Positions 6,548-21,563 of a stretch of 64,000 nt of DNA are shown piece after piece. The notes under the pieces are model-generated. The model was not told the DNA's origin and searched no databases. It saw nothing but the letters and a program-made list of their open reading frames with translations. The stretch is from Dentipellis sp. KUC8613. Its lineage: Eukaryota; Basidiomycota; Agaricomycetes; Russulales; Hericiaceae. The number at the start of each line of letters is the position of its first letter. Positions within the stretch are counted from its first letter, which is position 1. The position numbers and the translations under genes are program-made. Location: assembly GCA_002286715.1 (NCBI GenBank), contig NSJX01000012.1, positions 576,140 to 640,139 of the forward strand. The letters are read 5' to 3'.

Positions 6548-8478
6548 ATGTTGTACGTGCGTTCTTGGCAGGTAAGTCGGCGGCCGCTCATCTCGCTTGC
6601 CTGAGCGCGGCTGACTGCGACGCCGGGCTGCGCAGGTGGTCCGCGATGCATCGACGCATCGCACGCTCACCGACATCGCGACGCGCGAGCGATGCCCGCC
6701 GATTCAGCCGGGGCTCGGCTACGTGCTCGGCATCGATGCAAGGTAAGTTTGCGTGTTGCTGCCGCAGGGACCACCGGCATCGGGCTCACCGCTCGCCTTT
6801 CGTTCCCCCCAGCGCGTGGCTCTCCTCTGGTACACCCATCGAGGAGAACGTGATCACGCGGGGCCCAAACCCTGTGTTTGCGGCAGCCTTCCACCGGCTT
6901 GCGAAGATCCTCAAGGCCCCCGTTGCCGCTCTTTTCGTATTCGAGGGTGACCAGCTCCCCGATGCGAAGCGCCAGAAACATGCCGCCACCCACCCAGATT
7001 GGGCTGTCGAGGGCCTCAAGAGCCTCATCACAGCTTTCGGCTTTCGTTACCATGAGGTGAGCCACCGCTGGCATAGCTGCATCGCGTCGTCGGCCCTCGC
7101 GCGCGGCGGTGCCTCTGGTAAGCATGGCTCACCAGACCCCATTCAGGCCCCGGGCGAGGCCGTTGCGGAGCTCGCACGCCTCAATGAGCTCGGCCTCGTC
7201 GACACCGTCGTCTCAGACGACGCGCGCTCAGCGCTTCTCTTTGGTGCTGAGACCATCACCCGAAAGTAAGTGAAGCCCCCTTGGTGCCACCTCCGCCGTC
7301 GGTCGCACTGACTGCCATACTGATCCCTTTGACCCCAGCATCGACCCGTACACACCCGATCGCATCTCGGCGGTGGTGCACGTCCATTCAATGGATGTCG
7401 TGTACAACGGGGTGCCGCTTTCGCGGGCGGCGCTCGTCCTTGTCGCCCTCCTGACGGGTGGCGGTGGTTCTGAGGTAGGCTGTGCTGCATTCTGTGACAC
7501 CATTTGTGCATGTACTGATTGAGCACACGTCTCACATCCCAGGGCATAGATGGGTTCGACATCGACATCGCACTCCGGCTTGCACGCTACAACATTGCCG
7601 AGGAGCTGGTGCAGCTCGCACAGGAGCCTGACACCGATGCACACCAGGAGCTTGCTGGCCAGTGGGTTGACCGGCTGCGCTCCTTGCTGTGCCTAGACCC
7701 CTCTGGCCACCTTGGCGGGAACCATGAAGCACTCGCAACTGCTGTGGCCACCACCCCAGGCTTTCCTGCTCTGGACATCGTGCGAGGCTGCTACTCTCCG
7801 CATGTGTCTGAGTTTCAGGATCTGCTTGCCATTGATCGCAAGTGGCGCCTGCCGGACATTGATGGCCTTCTGCAGTTCTGCATGGAGCATTTTCACTGGC
7901 GGGCAGGTGCTGAGTTGGCCAAGAACATGCGCAAGGCCATCTGGCCAGGAGTTTGCTTCCGTGTCCTGTTGGCGGCACCCACAGCCATGAACCTTGTGAG
8001 TGCCGAGTCCTCTCTACTGCCACCAATGACCCCAATTAATCTCAATCCAGGAACTGCTCTTGCCGCTCAGCATGGCCGGTCTCGGGGCTCCTGCCCTTGG
8101 TAGGCATGCTAGCAACAAGGAGCGCATCTCCGCCTTCATACTGAAAGCTGACCTGGATGTGCGTACATCACGGCTCGGCCCAGTCATGTATCGGGTTGAG
8201 TGTGACATCTCTACCTTCCATGCCCGACTTTGTGTGGCCATAGGCAGCTGCAGTCCTGAGCTCGTCCACTTGAGCCACCCTTGTGAGCTGGTGGTTCCTG
8301 TTCAGGTCCTGCATGATGCATTCCCTGATTGTGTCCGGGCTGGTGTGGGGCCATATCATGCTCCTGCACTGCAGCCTCAACATGTAGGTCTCTGATGCTC
8401 CTGAGCCGCCCTGATACTGACAGTGATCACGTTCAGAATGTGGTCATCGACCTCACAGCGGACTCCGACTCAGACTAG
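6548..8478 (+). CDS. XPG/FEN1-like PIN-domain protein, probably nuclease-dead
   Basis: About 485 aa over eight exons (first 6548-6571, last about 8438-8478). It shows the XPG-N block YVLGIDASAWL, then FVFEGDQLPDAKRQK, then the XPG-I block APGEAVAELARLNELGLVD with SDDARSALLFGAETI, and then the helix-hairpin region LLTGGGGSEGIDG. Family members normally carry acidic metal ligands at these places: EAEA, DDVD-like and GGDY. Here they read EAVA, DDAR and GGGG, so only the first Asp, one Glu and one Asp remain. Catalysis is therefore doubtful. The C-terminus (VVIDLTADSDSD) looks like a SUMO-interaction motif. XPG-like proteins are abundant in Agaricomycetes. This one lies tail to tail with a tyrosine-recombinase gene, which suggests a place in a mobile element (inference). 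The start is uncertain because the first exon is only 24 bp. Confidence 0.8.
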
Positions 8479-14670: not shown

Positions 14671-14679
14671 CCCTAGAAG
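14671..14679 (+). repeat. Left 9-bp target-site duplication
   Basis: CCCTAGAAG directly precedes the left inverted terminus. An exact copy follows the right terminus at 21555-21563. Confidence 0.85.
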
Positions 14680-14840
14680 TAGTCTCGGTTCCAGACGTTC
14701 GAGGGAAGGACTGATTCCGGCCCGGTGACCGAAGCGGAGATGTAAATCGGAGTCAAAAAAGTCGTAAGGTTCATGTGGGGGGTCCTCCCCTCGAACGTCT
14801 GGTGCATTTCGATAGAGAAACGCACCTCGGTGACAATCAG
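14680..14840 (+). repeat. Left inverted terminus with internal foldback
   Basis: The 21 bp at 14691-14711 (starting CCAGACGTTCGAGG) and at 14782-14802 (ending CCTCGAACGTCTGG) are reverse complements with one mismatch. This end can therefore fold into a 21-bp stem with a loop of about 70 bases. The same segment matches the right end in inverted orientation. Confidence 0.75.
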
Positions 14841-15029
14841 TCACGGCACGTGGTGCGTAAGTAACGGATGTAACATATGTGACATGTCCCACATGACACG
14901 CAAAATGAGCAATCGAGCTTTCGGAGGGACTGTCAGAGTCAAACAGAAGGAAACATTGAAGATGTAGATAGCATGAAGGCATGCATGTGCAGAAAATTTC
15001 AGCGACGACGGCGGGAAGCAACGGCCGGC

Positions 15030-15120
15030 AAAAAAGTAATGGCACCGGCCAGCCTCGAACACAGATCGCGCGAAGCGATGCGCAATGGATCTACAACCCA
15101 TATGACCACTGCACTACTCA
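15030..15120 (-). other. tRNA-like, RNA polymerase III-like segment
   Basis: On the minus strand, in order, there is an A-box-like TAGTGCAGTGG (15116-15106); a perfect 5-bp anticodon-type stem with a 7-base loop TTGTAGA (15101-15085), which would present anticodon GTA; a second small hairpin; a B-box-like TGTTCGAGGCT (15061-15051); and a run of six T (15035-15030). The loop context resembles tRNA-Tyr, but the acceptor and T stems do not pair. This is not a functional tRNA by eye. A tRNA-derived relic or SINE-type promoter is the best reading. Confidence 0.35.
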
Positions 15121-15230
15121 ACCTTGAGAATCTTCGCTGCTTCACGATACATCAGGTGTCGCTTCGCTGAATGCTTATGTCATCATCTAAATACGGCATC
15201 TCGTGCAAGAAGTCTTTTCAACTCAACACC

Positions 15231-17887
15231 ATGCCGACATCTGCACCTTCTGGCCCTGATTCTGCTTTCTCTCTCCATGAATTCTTCGACAATATCTCTT
15301 CTGATGATGATCTTGATGATGTTGATAATCTCTCTATTGGAGATCTTGACGGATCTGATGATATCTCAGATATTGAACCTGTTGTTGAGTCTACACCACC
15401 AATTCAGCATGCTCGGACTACCTCTCTTCGCTCACAAATGCAGGGCAACATTGCAGCAAAATTGAAACGGGTATTTTCCTGTTTGGAGGATGAGGGCCTG
15501 GACATCGTTTTGTTCCTGGATTATCTCAGCTGGGGTGATGAAGACTGCATCTCCGATCCAAGACTCCTCTATGAACGTACTGCGCTCTTATCAAGCAACA
15601 TACTTCCCATCATCTTGCGTCGCTGGTGGAATCCGCCAGGTGGACGAGCAAAACAGGGGCGAGGAGTACTGACAGAATTTGCAGTGGCTTGCACTGCAGA
15701 ACTGGTTGAAGCGGAGATTGCCCGCATCGCACCTGCAATGAAGTCGTCTCCTGATCCTCTATCGGTGGAGTCCCTCACATCTCTGGATTTCCATGCCTTA
15801 TCCATGCACCTGAAATCCCCTCAAGGATGTCCAATACTATGGTCAATTCTTCAGAGAGCAGGATGGAGCAAAGAACAAGCCACCCGCAATACACACAAAA
15901 CACCTGACAATGTATGTTTCTTCATCTTTTTCTTAACAGCCTACCTAACACAAAGTTTTAGGTCATCATGAATATACTGTCCATGCTTTCATTTACTCGA
16001 TCCCATCATCACAATCGCCTCCCAATGCTTTGGTCCATATATCTCAAATCGTGTGGCCTTTCGGCTCGTGCATTTGATGCCCTTCATGCTGTTGGGCTTC
16101 TTATGAGTCACAAGTGGACCACGACAGCTTTTGCGAGCATTGCAAGTCGTGCTGAAGAGGCAGCACAATCTGCAATCAATGGTCAAGCCACCTTCCTTTC
16201 TCATGACAACCTGAACATCCCGAAACGTGTCTTCTCGATGCGGTTGGAAAATCAAAGTCATTTTCATAGTGCATGTGCAGGTACATTATGGGTTCTACCC
16301 AAGGAGATTGTATTCCCTGCCACCCTCAACCGGGAGATGCAGGAGTCTCGTATTCAAGGCAGCAAGGCCCCATTCAATTTCTCCCAACTTCTTGACACTG
16401 ATCCGATGGTCTATGGACGTCTTCGCAATCAAGGTGTCTATCAGATTCTCTGTTTTCTACTTGACTGCCCAGCATTTGCTACTTATCAACACCGCAATGA
16501 TCCTATCCTATCTCCTCCCCCACCAGTACATCTCCTGCCATGTGGACCAGAACATGTCATCAAGCAGTTTATCCTACGCACCGCAGACATTGATGAAGCA
16601 AGCTATGAAGGAAACGAGAAGGTTCTGGCCGAGTGGCAACGACAACTGAAGATCGACTCGTTAGCCGAGATGAAGAAGACATCAACAGGTCGTCTAATAC
16701 CAATTGTCGGAGACCAACTCACCGTCGACCGCCTCCGTGGTCTAGCAAAGTACCGTCATGATGATATCAACAGCTATGAAAGGCTTGATTGGATTGTCAC
16801 TGTCAATGGTTGGTTTCATATTGAAATGGCCTTTGCAAGTTCTCTGCATAAGCAGCATCTTGGGACTTCTGGGGGTATTGGACTCCACAAAGCATTTGAT
16901 GTACTACAGCGCAAGGGACTCATGTCAACACAAGTCAAGGGCCCCTTCTGGCACCATCTCGATGAAGCACTCACCCACGTTGCAGAGGCTCATTTTCGAG
17001 CACTGTGGGTTCTCCTCGGCAAAACCAAAACCATTGGAGATCTTGCGCAGAAGACACCTGCAGAACTTCTCTTGCTGGCGGAGGACATCTATGATCAATA
17101 TGCATGTCGTCGTGCACTTTTGAAGATGCAACTTCGTCATGAACAAGATGAGGTTAAATATCAGTCAATCCTCTTTAACGCAGATGTGCTCTCGTACCTG
17201 GACTTGCGCGACGCAACCCGTACTGGCGATGTTGGCCGCATAGAAGATTTGATCCCAACCCTATTATTACGATTTGCTGGCGGCGGGAACAGCAAGTACA
17301 TGATTGAAATGCTGGAGCTCGTGCAAGGACTGCGCTGTGAATGGCCCAAATCAGTGAAGTGAGTCGCACATTATCGGCAACAGGGATGAGCACTGACTCA
17401 CTATAAACGGGCTTCCAGAGACATTGTACGAACACACTGTTGGCTGGTCAACAGAACCGGGAGGCGTGATGGCTTTGTTCCGACCGATCGTGCACAGGAG
17501 CAGAACATCAAAGACCTCAAAGTTACGTACCATTCGTTCGGACCAGGCGCAACGCTCGCGTACTTGACGAAAATCTCGCCGGCTGTGCCTGTCCTGCGTG
17601 AGGTCAAAAAGCATATCAAGTGGCAGTTAGAGACACTACTTACTCGTGGAGACCGCCACTCATCTCCCAACAAGGAAAAAGATATTGAAAAATACACCGA
17701 TATCGTGCTGAGCGAGCGGTGGTTCACATACGAAAAGAACCGTCGGCTGAAGAAGCCAGGAGACCGCGCAAAGGACTTCATAACTGAGGGTGTGACGGCC
17801 CTTTTTCAAGACAAAGCCATTGAGCGGTGGTGGAAAGGACGTTCGTTCGTGCGCTCCACTCAGGAGAAGTGGCTCGATGAGGCATAA
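15231..17887 (+). CDS. DUF6589-type protein, putative transposase
   Basis: 848 aa in three exons (15231-15911, 15962-17358, 17419-17887). The N-terminal 60 residues are acidic and disordered. A helical region follows, and then the most conserved part: PIVGDQLTVDRLRGLAKYRH, DWIVTVNGWFHIEMAFAS and, in the last exon, CWLVNRTGRRDGFVPTDRAQ, EQNIKDLKVTY and GDRHSSPNKEKD. These match my memory of DUF6589, a family common in Agaricomycetes and without a proven function. Its position inside a bounded element with a target duplication supports a transposase role; the Asp in GDQLT and acidic residues further on could serve an RNase H-like fold, but that is inference. An in-frame ATG at 15171 is an alternative start. 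No disruption is seen. The gene ends 122 bp from the end of the helicase gene. Confidence 0.8.
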
Positions 17888-18009
17888 TGTACTATGATAG
17901 GTTATAAACAGGGTTTACGGCGTACTACAGCACACCGACAATCGGTGTCCTGCATACCTACGGAGCTGGTATTCATACAGGTTAATAGATATTTCCATAA
18001 AGTAGAATT

Positions 18010-21000
18010 CTAAATACCTGTTCGGCGTTGCGAGTGTTCGCCGCTGAAAGGGAACATATCTCCTACGCTCGGAGATGACGCGGATGGACTCCGCACGGGA
18101 ATACGAAGTCGAGGGACAGCCGGCATGTTGCAATCGACCTGAGTGCTCCCAGCGCCGCCAGAGAACCGAGATTCGGGGGAGGGTGATGGTGGAGCGCCGC
18201 AGAAAGGTGGTTGATAGGAGTATCCCATAAACCCTGCTGCATCACCCCGCGGCAGCGGCGCGGGTGGCGTGTAGTATGGCGGGTGTGCGTACATCATGAG
18301 AGCGGGCGTATTTCGCGCAGAGGGTGGAAGATTTGGTGAAGGAGCGTGCGGGGCTGATGGGCCCGGAGGCGTTGATGTGAATCCCTGGCGCGCACCGGGA
18401 CCAGCGAAGGGAAGGCCGTACAATGGCTCGGATTGAATCCAAGGTGCGTTGTGTTGTTGAGCGACTCGATAGTGCGCAGCATGGTCGCGCGCGTCGGACA
18501 GCGCGCGCGCATACGAGTGATACGTGGCAGGTGTGGTGCCGCTCGTGTCGCTCGTGTTCGCAAGTGCGTGTGCGTCCGCGATCCGCGCGAACCGATCCAC
18601 ACGTGTAGCGTCTCTGTACAGTCCGTTGAAGGGGCCAGGCGCAGATACCACTGGGGTACCCGGATTGCTATGCAGAGTGGCCGAAGGAGGTGCCACCGCA
18701 TGCGCGCCATGGCCATACGAGCCGCTTGATGCGTGCAGATCGCCAGGTTGGCCGATCGCTCGCATGGTGAGGGTAGCTTGAGGGGTGGCAACCAGCGGGA
18801 TGGCTCCGTATAGCGCAGGTGGTCGACAAAGCGTATGAGGACTGGGCATTGGCGAATCGGGGAACGAAATGCGGGGCGCGGATTGAGTCTGTCTTACCAT
18901 TAGCGATCGAGTCTCGGTGAGGACAGGGCAAATGACTTACATTGACTATGTTTGCAGTTTGGACAGGCTCGACGCGAGCCTTGCGAGCACGCGAAGCCCG
19001 CGGCTTCGGCGGCTGGCGTCTGCGCTCTTCGCGTACTCGTTCCTGCTCGTCCTTCTTCGCGCGCTTCTTCTCCGCTTGCTGTCTTGCCGTTTCCGCCTTC
19101 TTCGCGTCCATCTTGACCTTATGTTCGTACTCCTTCCGCCTCCGCACCTTCTCATCAACGCTCTGCATCAGCCCGAGGACCTCAGGTCCATGTCTCTCGA
19201 GCCATATCCAGTTCGCCGCTGGAGCGTCGACATCCGCGACTAAACGCCAGCGCCCGTTCGACGCAAAGGAAGTGAGCACGGTGTCGGGCATGACCCCCTC
19301 GACACCGTATGGGGCTGTCGAATAACGCTTCGACCAGGTGTCCAAGCGCCAACGTTCGAGAGCTCTCCTTGCCTCAGCCAGGTGCTCCTTCTGTCGGGTC
19401 GCAGGACCTTGATCAGGATCGCGCATCGTGCGCTTCCCGAATGCGTTTCGGGACTTGCTGGGAGTCGGATGGGAAACGACGGTGCCCGCGTCGTCGTCGT
19501 CGTCAACGCGAGCTGGGTTGGGAGTATGAGGGCGAGCGTCGATGTTCATGTTTGGTTGACAGGCATCGCAGCACATGCCCAAAGGTGCTATCATGATGGT
19601 GATGTAATAAGCCGCATGTAGTAGTGCTTCTAAATGGATATACGCACGCTGTCGTGTCGGCGGATTGAAGAAGTACTCGTCCGCTATGTCGCGACGACAC
19701 TGCTCTCCCTCGAGCCAGGTTCGCAAGCCCTCCTCGATAGTTTTGACGTATACGACGTCGTCACCTTCTTGCCGAGTCTTCTTTCCTTTTTCCTGGAACA
19801 CCGAGGGCTGAACCAGAAGAAAAGCTTCACCCTGCATGTCTTGCTGCCGCGCCGCACGCCCTGCTCGCTGGAGCCAGATCGAGAGGGAGCCTGGGACCAT
19901 GAATTGAGCAATGATCTTGATTCTCGGTATGTCACATCCCTGTATGGCCTGCTGTTCAAAAGCTAAACTTTCTTAACAGAGTGTTGACGTACGATACCAG
20001 CTGCTTCGGACGCAAACCATATGTCCATGCACTCGTCACAAAATTGGTCGTAGCAATGGCGTTTCGATTGAGGACCGCGACGGGAATTGTAGCACCCGAC
20101 GCGGTGGCGCAGATGTTCGGGAAGACGTTCTCGAAACCAACGACACGCTTCCATGGACAACTGAATATCATCGAAGAAGACAATGGCGCGTTGAAGGGTT
20201 GGCTCTGCTTCCGTCGGAAGCAGAAAATCGAGACTCTCCAGGTCCGATTTACCAGCTTTCATGTGGATGACTCGCCAAGCAATGTTTGGACGGTCGTTAC
20301 CTAGGTTGAGATGGTACGTGTTTGTTTTGTCCATCTGCACAGATTTTCGTATGGTGACGAGGTCTGCTGGCGTCAAAGTTGCAGACGTGACAAGGAACGG
20401 CACCTGCGCGGACACAAACGCGCGCAGCGTACCGAGCTGCAGATATTCGGTGCGAAATTTCTCACCCCATTGCGTGATACAGTGCGCCTCGTCGATAATG
20501 AACGCGCTGATCTTCTCCGAGAAATCAGAGCTGCTCAGGAGCGCGCGGAACCTGTCGTGCTGCAAGCACATGTTTGGTGAGGTGACAAGGATTTGATATT
20601 TGCCCCTCTCGATCTCCTGCCGCGCGCGGATGAGGAACGCATACAAGATACGCGCACGAACCGTACCTTTTGCAGCGCGTCCGTGTATGTCGTTCCATTC
20701 ACGGCCTGTGCAGAGACTCCCAAGGCACGAAAGCGACGAGCCTATATTCCATTTGGTCAGTTCCTAGCCCTGCACGAGACACCCGAGACCACTGACCTGA
20801 TCTTCTTCAAGTGCATTTAAGGGGGAAATAATAATAATGATCTTGTCGGGTTGATAAAAGAGTGGCAGAATGAATGGTATAGTTTTGCCTGCACCAGTCG
20901 GGGCAATGAGCTCGCAGTCCACGCCGAGGATGAGACTTTCGGCAATGTCTAACTGCCAGTCATGAGGGACTATGCGACCTTCAGATCGAGTCTTGCATTG

Positions 21001-21234
21001 TTCAAGCATTTTCCTTCGAGCTTCAAAAGAGTTGTAGTTTGAACCTGCTTTGGCCCGCTTTCGAGCAGCTTCGAGCAAAGCTTCCGACCTTTGCCGCTGT
21101 TTTTCGTGAGCATCCGCTCGAGCCTGCCTGTCCCTTGATGGGGCACTGGCTGCCGGGGGATTTTCACCCTCCTCGACTGCACTGCTTGACGGTGCTGGGT
21201 CGTCATCCGGGGCAGGCTCGACGTCGGAGGCCAT
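18010..21234 (-). CDS. RecQ-family ATP-dependent DNA helicase
   Basis: 1004 aa in five exons (21234-20797, 20741-20667, 20616-19993, 19939-18941, 18888-18010). The N-terminal 50 residues are acidic. Helicase motifs in order: Q-like PHDWQLDIAESLILG, Walker A APTGAGKT, motif Ia in ARRFRALGVSAQAVN, DEAH box FIIDEAHCITQWGEKF, motif III VTSAT, motif V AAGIGCDIPRIKIIAQF, and motif VI WLQRAGRAARQ. A zinc-binding subdomain follows, with CRRDIADEYF and later MCCDAC. The rest is a charged Lys/Arg/Ala coiled coil and a tail of about 290 residues rich in Pro, Ala and Ser. All catalytic motifs look intact. The junction at 19993/19939 reads through only with the GTACGT donor. RecQ-like helicases are multicopy in mushroom fungi; here the gene lies within transposon ends. 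Confidence 0.85.
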
Positions 21235-21384
21235 GGTTGGTGGACACAACTTAAAATTGTGAGACTGTCCCTTACTAGTCTCATTTTGTCATCCTGGATG
21301 CGTAAGAAATCGACGCGTCTGCGACGCGTTTCGATCACATGACGGCCTGTACAATTTATGTAATGTCACGACGTGCACCCCTCT

Positions 21385-21554
21385 ATACGAAGTACACCAG
21401 ACGTTCTAGGAGAGGATCCTGCGCGTGAACCTTACTGTTTTTTTGCCTCCGACTTGAAACTCCGACTCGGTATCATCCGAGATCTCGATAACACACCTAC
21501 CCTCGGATACAGAGCGCAAGGGATCCTTCTCCTAGAACGACGGGAACGAGACTA
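21385..21554 (-). repeat. Right inverted terminus with internal foldback
   Basis: CGTTCTAGGAGAGGATCC at about 21402-21419 and GGATCCTTCTCCTAGAACG at 21521-21539 are reverse complements apart from one inserted base. The hairpin design thus matches the left end, although the sequence between the stems has diverged. Confidence 0.75.
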
Positions 21555-21563
21555 CCCTAGAAG
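21555..21563 (+). repeat. Right 9-bp target-site duplication
   Basis: CCCTAGAAG follows the right terminus and is identical to 14671-14679. Confidence 0.85.

Follow-up and report, generated by a model that had tools for sequence, protein, structure and literature searches.

A candidate AcademH transposon with a DUF6589 gene and a RecQ-like helicase gene in Dentipellis sp. KUC8613

The element and its genes

The 64,000-nucleotide stretch of Dentipellis sp. KUC8613 DNA analysed here (the window) is part of contig C22, in a genome of 34.1 Mb and 171 contigs, and contains a 6,875-bp element with two convergent genes, one for a protein with the domain DUF6589 (PF20231) and one for a RecQ-like superfamily 2 helicase. 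A first-pass annotation of the window had described this region as a complete transposon, with an exact 9-bp target duplication directly outside ends that are near inverted complements, and the description stands in each of these respects. Both flanks are exact copies of CCCTAGAAG, the ends read TAGTCTCGGTTCC and TAGTCTCGTTCCC (the latter being the reverse complement of GGGAACGAGACTA), the length between the duplications agrees, and completeness is supported by other genome copies having duplications of their own. The element is very probably an autonomous-looking DNA transposon of the AcademH lineage, in which DUF6589 would be the transposase. Coordinates are collected in Table 1.

The 13-bp ends are imperfectly inverted. 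Inward of them, stretches of 84 nt (14728-14811 and 21388-21471) are 77% complementary, and each end also contains an inner inverted pair, that of the left end (14691-14711 and 14782-14802) being 95% complementary; the motif CCAGACGTTC has an inner inverted copy within each element end. Folding of the left end (14680-14815) as single-stranded DNA gave a structure more stable than those of shuffled sequences (z-score -3.61). The right-end piece, which included part of its inverted pair only, folded no better than shuffles (z-score 0.48), and no general claim of hairpin ends is made for the element.

Table 1. Features of the window, two-ended copies of the element, and distant elements with DUF6589 and RecQ genes
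Feature	Position	Strand	Size	Sequence or remarks
Left target-site duplication	14671..14679	none	9 bp	CCCTAGAAG; direct reading; all 8 two-ended copies have a 9-bp duplication
Left terminal inverted repeat	14680..14692	+	13 bp	TAGTCTCGGTTCC; 9 exact genome copies
Extended left end	14680..14811	+		Inner inverted pair; pairs with right end; 78% identity to C9 copy
Putative Pol III-like unit	15051..15116	-		Box A-like, box B-like, T6 run downstream; points to left terminus
DUF6589 gene, probable transposase	15231..17887	+	848 amino acids	Predicted introns 15912-15961, 17359-17418; PF20231; predicted fold, triad
RecQ-like superfamily 2 helicase gene	18010..21234	-	1004 amino acids	Predicted introns 20796-20742, 20666-20617, 19992-19940, 18940-18889
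Extended right end	21388..21554	-		Inner inverted pair 21397-21413 / 21528-21544; 98% identity on C11
Right terminal inverted repeat	21542..21554	-	13 bp	GGGAACGAGACTA (as on + strand); direct reading
Right target-site duplication	21555..21563	none	9 bp	CCCTAGAAG; direct reading
Copy in C22 (the window)	14680..21554		6,875 bp	Duplication CCCTAGAAG
Copy in C11			6,906 bp	Duplication GTGGAGCGC
Large copy in C86	C86:309227-321989		12,763 bp	Duplication ATGTACATG
Short copy in C86	C86:285023			Duplication ACCCGGATG
Short copy in C150				Duplication AAATAGAGC
Short copy in C1				Duplication CAAGAATTG
Short copy in C9			1,424 bp	Duplication GTCCTCATA
Short copy in C121			260 bp	Duplication AGGACATCT
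Distant element in C161	C161:176132-183614			Duplication TCGGCGAGT; ends TAGTCTCCTT / TAGTCTACCT
Distant element in C112	C112:123370-130923			Duplication CGAAACTGA; ends TAGCCTCGGA / TAGGCTCGTA

Copies elsewhere in the genome

A search of the 34-Mb genome for terminal sequence, proposed as a check in the first-pass annotation, did reveal other copies with 9-bp duplications. The 13-bp left end has nine exact matches, the window included, versus none for a backwards control, and queries of about 150 bp from the two ends matched 14 and 10 times, again counting the window. Eight copies (the window and seven others) are readable at both ends, and all eight are flanked by an exact 9-bp duplication, different in each; with the ends fixed, a single match of this kind has a chance probability of about 4^-9. 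Inside three short copies, 1,100 to 1,145 bases are unread (N).

Three further insertions stand outside the eight: a right end only on C61, a left end only on C90 (the right side is lost and a nested insertion is present), and an insertion split between two contigs, C128 having the left end and C67 the right, each with CCCGAACAG as its flank. The split is either a rearrangement or an assembly break; at C128:1046159-1046696 the left end of the copy lies beside element DNA in inverted orientation, and C67 has the right end together with the 9-bp flank that matches. At C90:216500-221209 a near-identical copy of the 1.4-kb element is broken by a 2.2-kb insertion, itself flanked by about 6 repeated bases. 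The large C86 copy is a 12.8-kb relative with approximately 70% identity over DUF6589 and helicase parts and about 5.4 kb of additional DNA inside the start of the transposase gene. A tRNA match (C86:284794-284865) lies about 160 bases from the short C86 insertion, and many tRNA matches occur on C86 and C128 (63 of 890 candidates scored).

An empty site, the second check that had been suggested, did not emerge when eight joined flank pairs (110 + 110 bases) were compared with their own genome, by a search that skips common words and scores candidates only. Among its 27 matches, 16 were the flanks in their own places and the remaining 11 were pieces, none longer than 49 bases, from the left flank of a single C86 copy.

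DUF6589 as the probable transposase

Matches to PF20231 occur on two exons of the gene (E-values 2.5e-95 and 4.1e-22), and an annotated homologue from Dentipellis sp. KUC8613, P0001, has the same length and 96% identity, with PF20231 at residues 361-773. The predicted structure of DUF6589 (predicted local distance difference test score 88.8) has as its best, though weak, matches the P-element and Hermes transposases, over model residues 145-756 and 282-757, respectively; this comparison covers the chains ranked by Foldseek, and families outside that ranking are not thereby excluded. The triad D309, D478 and E720 is retained in 75 of the 77 homologues that are ungapped at those columns. The homologues found number 106, and where species are named they come from what we take to be mushroom-forming fungi.

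These computations suggest that DUF6589 is a DDE-type transposase with an RNase H fold resembling that of hAT and P transposases, and that D478 and E720 would be separated by a long, mostly helical insert. Because the predicted fold, the triad and the recurrence of DUF6589 with the element point the same way, the protein is probably the element's transposase and not a passenger. The mobile context that the first-pass annotation gave to DUF6589 is thereby supported and made more specific.

The RecQ-like helicase and its pairing with DUF6589

The RecQ family profile TIGR00614 matches one helicase exon (E 4.3e-18, 65 bits; the curated whole-protein cut-off of 219.8 is not reached), DEAD exceeds its cut-off on two exons, and Helicase_C falls below its own. 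RecQ5, WRN and BLM are the relatives of solved structure (E down to 2.6e-11), and the profile scan of the helicase frames matched no further RecQ domains besides the core. The acceptor of the third predicted intron was revised by hand, and the frame used in comparisons has 3,015 bases.

At eight of the 12 places in the genome with DUF6589 a RecQ match is nearby (C22, C11, C86, C67, C112, C7 and two on C161), DUF6589 being without one on C68, C93, C82 and C164, and helicase matches without DUF6589 being present on C36 and C163. The two genes are convergent at C7 and at both C161 loci, as in the window, and divergent at C112. Two of the four distant loci with both genes also have 9-bp duplications and ends in TAG (Table 1), and at the other two (C7 and C161b) no complete element was found. 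With 60 dinucleotide shuffles per locus as a control, TAG-ended pairs were never obtained at any of the four loci, and 9-bp pairs of any kind were seen in 0, 0, 5 and 4 of 60 shuffles for C161a, C7, C112 and C161b, respectively. Pairs of 7 bp at C112 (2; shuffle mean 0.40) and at C161b (5; mean 1.38) include none ending in TAG, and were taken as chance. Across fungi, 10 of 63 best helicase matches share a contig, as judged by equal size and species, with a DUF6589 match, one such contig being a 5,312-base sequence of Agrocybe.

Age and selection

Over 6,942 aligned columns the window copy and the C11 copy share 89.3% identity, as a mosaic of 75 to 99%: the part between the left end and about 17154 has 93-99%, the part up to 17979 has 87-91%, 17980-20179 has 75-86%, and the remainder, as far as the right end, has 94-99%. 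Such a pattern suggests recombination between subfamilies. Short copies are much closer to one another, the last 150 bp being identical among C9, C86:285023 and C150 (C1 agrees with these in 135 of 151 columns), and, over the first 93 bp, C9 being matched at 91 of 93 positions by each of C86:285023, C150 and C1; C90 matches C9 at 227 of 227 positions and in 99.4% of 1,056 columns.

The first-pass annotation had read recent activity from the exact duplication and undisrupted genes, and this is supported for some of the short copies (C9, C86:285023, C150 and C90 are near-identical where compared) but not shown for the window copy. An exact duplication is no proof of its recency, since all eight two-ended copies keep theirs whatever their age, and recency fits the short non-autonomous copies better than the window copy because the full-length C11 relative stands at 89% identity. 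The genes themselves are undisrupted, as was claimed, both frames being open in the window copy under predicted splicing, and for this reason the copy may be autonomous. Between the window and C11, the ratio of nonsynonymous to synonymous substitution rates (dN/dS) is 0.13 for the transposase gene, with no stop, and 0.24 overall for the helicase gene (0.12 in codons 70-560, 0.53 in the tail), the C11 helicase having two in-frame stops; from these ratios, both genes look to have been under purifying selection.

Pol III-like units near the ends

A scan for RNA polymerase III (Pol III)-like units, defined by a box A, a box B and a T-run, identified a single one in the window copy (0.00 in 40 shuffles), with a counterpart in C11 and C128 element DNA. 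The large C86 copy also has one unit, the 1.4-kb C9 copy has four (element positions 350-978), the C161 element has two, close to its right end (7073-7280), and C7 has one upstream of the transposase, shuffle means being 0.00 to 0.07 (40 shuffles each). Where ends and genes are known, the units are positioned between an end and a gene start and directed outward; in the C9 copy, which is without genes, all four point left. The remaining 57 kb of the window has no such unit, and about 50 kb of other sequence contained one background match (C61) besides that on C128. The C112 element has none, C7 has a further match on the plus strand, and one match in the C161b region is not placeable relative to element ends.

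The T-run criterion was added after the data had been seen, which makes the test post hoc. With the looser box A and box B scan, not requiring a T-run, neither the window copy (1 versus a shuffle mean of 1.5) nor the large C86 copy (7 versus a mean of 2.7, maximum 10) rose above shuffles, and only the C9 copy stood out (4 versus a mean of 0.23, maximum 1). The units were not recognized as tRNAs by ARAGORN, or by Rfam at E-values as high as 1, or 10 in the case of C9. A dispersed short repeat was considered as their source and set aside, DNA searches having matched only element copies or rearranged element DNA (diverged copies would escape). A literature search on the subject gave no paper containing five of its six terms, which is weak evidence. 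That transposons of the DUF6589/RecQ type bring along Pol III-type transcription units of their own, pointing outward from the subterminal non-coding DNA, is offered as a tentative and rather doubtful proposal; the product of such units would be a non-coding RNA, or else they would form a boundary bound by TFIIIC, in either case aiding expression, chromatin access or transposition.

A proposed course of transposition

In the mechanism envisaged, the transposase would bind the terminal and subterminal inverted motifs and then pair both ends, the ends would be cut by the D309/D478/E720 site, and joining to the target with cuts 9 bp apart would leave the 9-bp duplication. More speculatively, the RecQ-like helicase might unwind DNA during transposition or repair, be it at the palindromic ends, at the ends after excision, or in the gapped donor or target. 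Short copies without genes would have been moved in trans.

For DUF6589, listed as an unknown domain, this provides a testable function, and the triad together with defined ends makes a direct excision assay possible. Since the family includes a copy that is plausibly autonomous, short copies that are nearly identical, and a helicase as partner, the purpose of a RecQ helicase in some DNA transposons likewise becomes testable. Pol III-like units, if real, would be an unusual thing for a DNA transposon to carry.

Lineage of the element

AcademH was reportedly described by Kojima in 2020 (Mob DNA 11:15), within the Academ superfamily of DNA transposons. The present element is assigned there because its helicase and 9-bp duplication match reported AcademH features, and it is most likely a low-copy AcademH transposon and not a new kind, the transposases having been set beside Academ by description. 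It seems improbable that it represents a separate new superfamily, sharing a helicase and duplication length with AcademH by convergence; the comparison with Academ by description, and not by sequence, leaves some room for this, as does the open-licence literature, in which no relevant paper on DUF6589 or PF20231 was found, but the element fits AcademH, as portrayed in excerpts of its descriptions, by its helicase and 9-bp duplication as well as by its host range and low copy number.

Even less probable is movement in trans by some other superfamily (MULE, hAT or P-like), with DUF6589 and RecQ as captured cargo. Mutator-like elements (MULEs) can give duplications of about 9 bp and capture genes, and the DUF6589 fold does resemble those of hAT and P transposases. 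However, two distant families keep DUF6589 and RecQ together with TAG ends and 9-bp duplications, DUF6589 itself has a predicted transposase-like fold with a triad, and no other transposase domain was detected in the seven reading frames scanned or in P0001.

Kolobok elements have TTAA as their target duplication, and the 9 bp of variable sequence found here leave KolobokH, a fungal DNA transposon lineage with a RecQ helicase, as a very remote candidate. The likeness is that KolobokH, in an excerpt of PMC9587614, encodes a RecQ helicase and is found only in fungi; there, however, the helicase is downstream of the transposase domain, whereas here it is a separate gene on the opposite strand, though the same excerpt records a single Kolobok, from a red alga, in which RecQ is on the complementary strand. 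It also gives a C/DxxH motif between the second D and the E as a feature of Kolobok, hAT, P, MuDR and Dada, a motif not conserved in DUF6589 (no column has it in more than 3 of 86 sequences). Coincidence of a 9-bp repeat and inverted ends around two host genes, in whose favour stands solely the missing empty site, is refuted by the eight two-ended copies, at different sites and with different exact 9-bp duplications, and its probability is negligible.

Comparison with known systems

The AcademH assignment can be set against several better-described systems. hAT (Hermes) and P transposases share with the DUF6589 model an RNase H-like fold and a long insert before the last acidic residue. Their duplications are 8 bp, in contrast to 9 bp here, and the PDB contains no sequence match to the main DUF6589 exon. 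Fungal subtelomeric RecQ-like helicase genes, which according to an excerpt of PMC7473861 are without other RecQ domains, resemble the present helicase in having a RecQ core with other RecQ domains unmatched, but here the gene is inside a transposon and beside a probable transposase.

For the Academ transposons, an excerpt of PMC10045372 gives 9- or 10-bp duplications and a linked helicase for AcademH, versus 3-4 bp and a nuclease for AcademX, from which the 9 bp found here differ. Passages of PMC10799480 and PMC9587614 describe AcademH as low-copy in Basidiomycota and count Academ among the DDD/E superfamilies, respectively. The element has in common with AcademH, as portrayed in these excerpts, the helicase gene, the 9-bp duplication, a fungal host and low copy number, and by prediction a DDD/E transposase (D309/D478/E720 in a transposase-like fold). 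Since transposons that carry a helicase and make 9-10-bp duplications already have the name AcademH, the novelty implied by the first-pass annotation is reduced. The putative outward Pol III-like units, which the excerpted AcademH descriptions do not mention, are a lead and may be more novel than the transposon itself.
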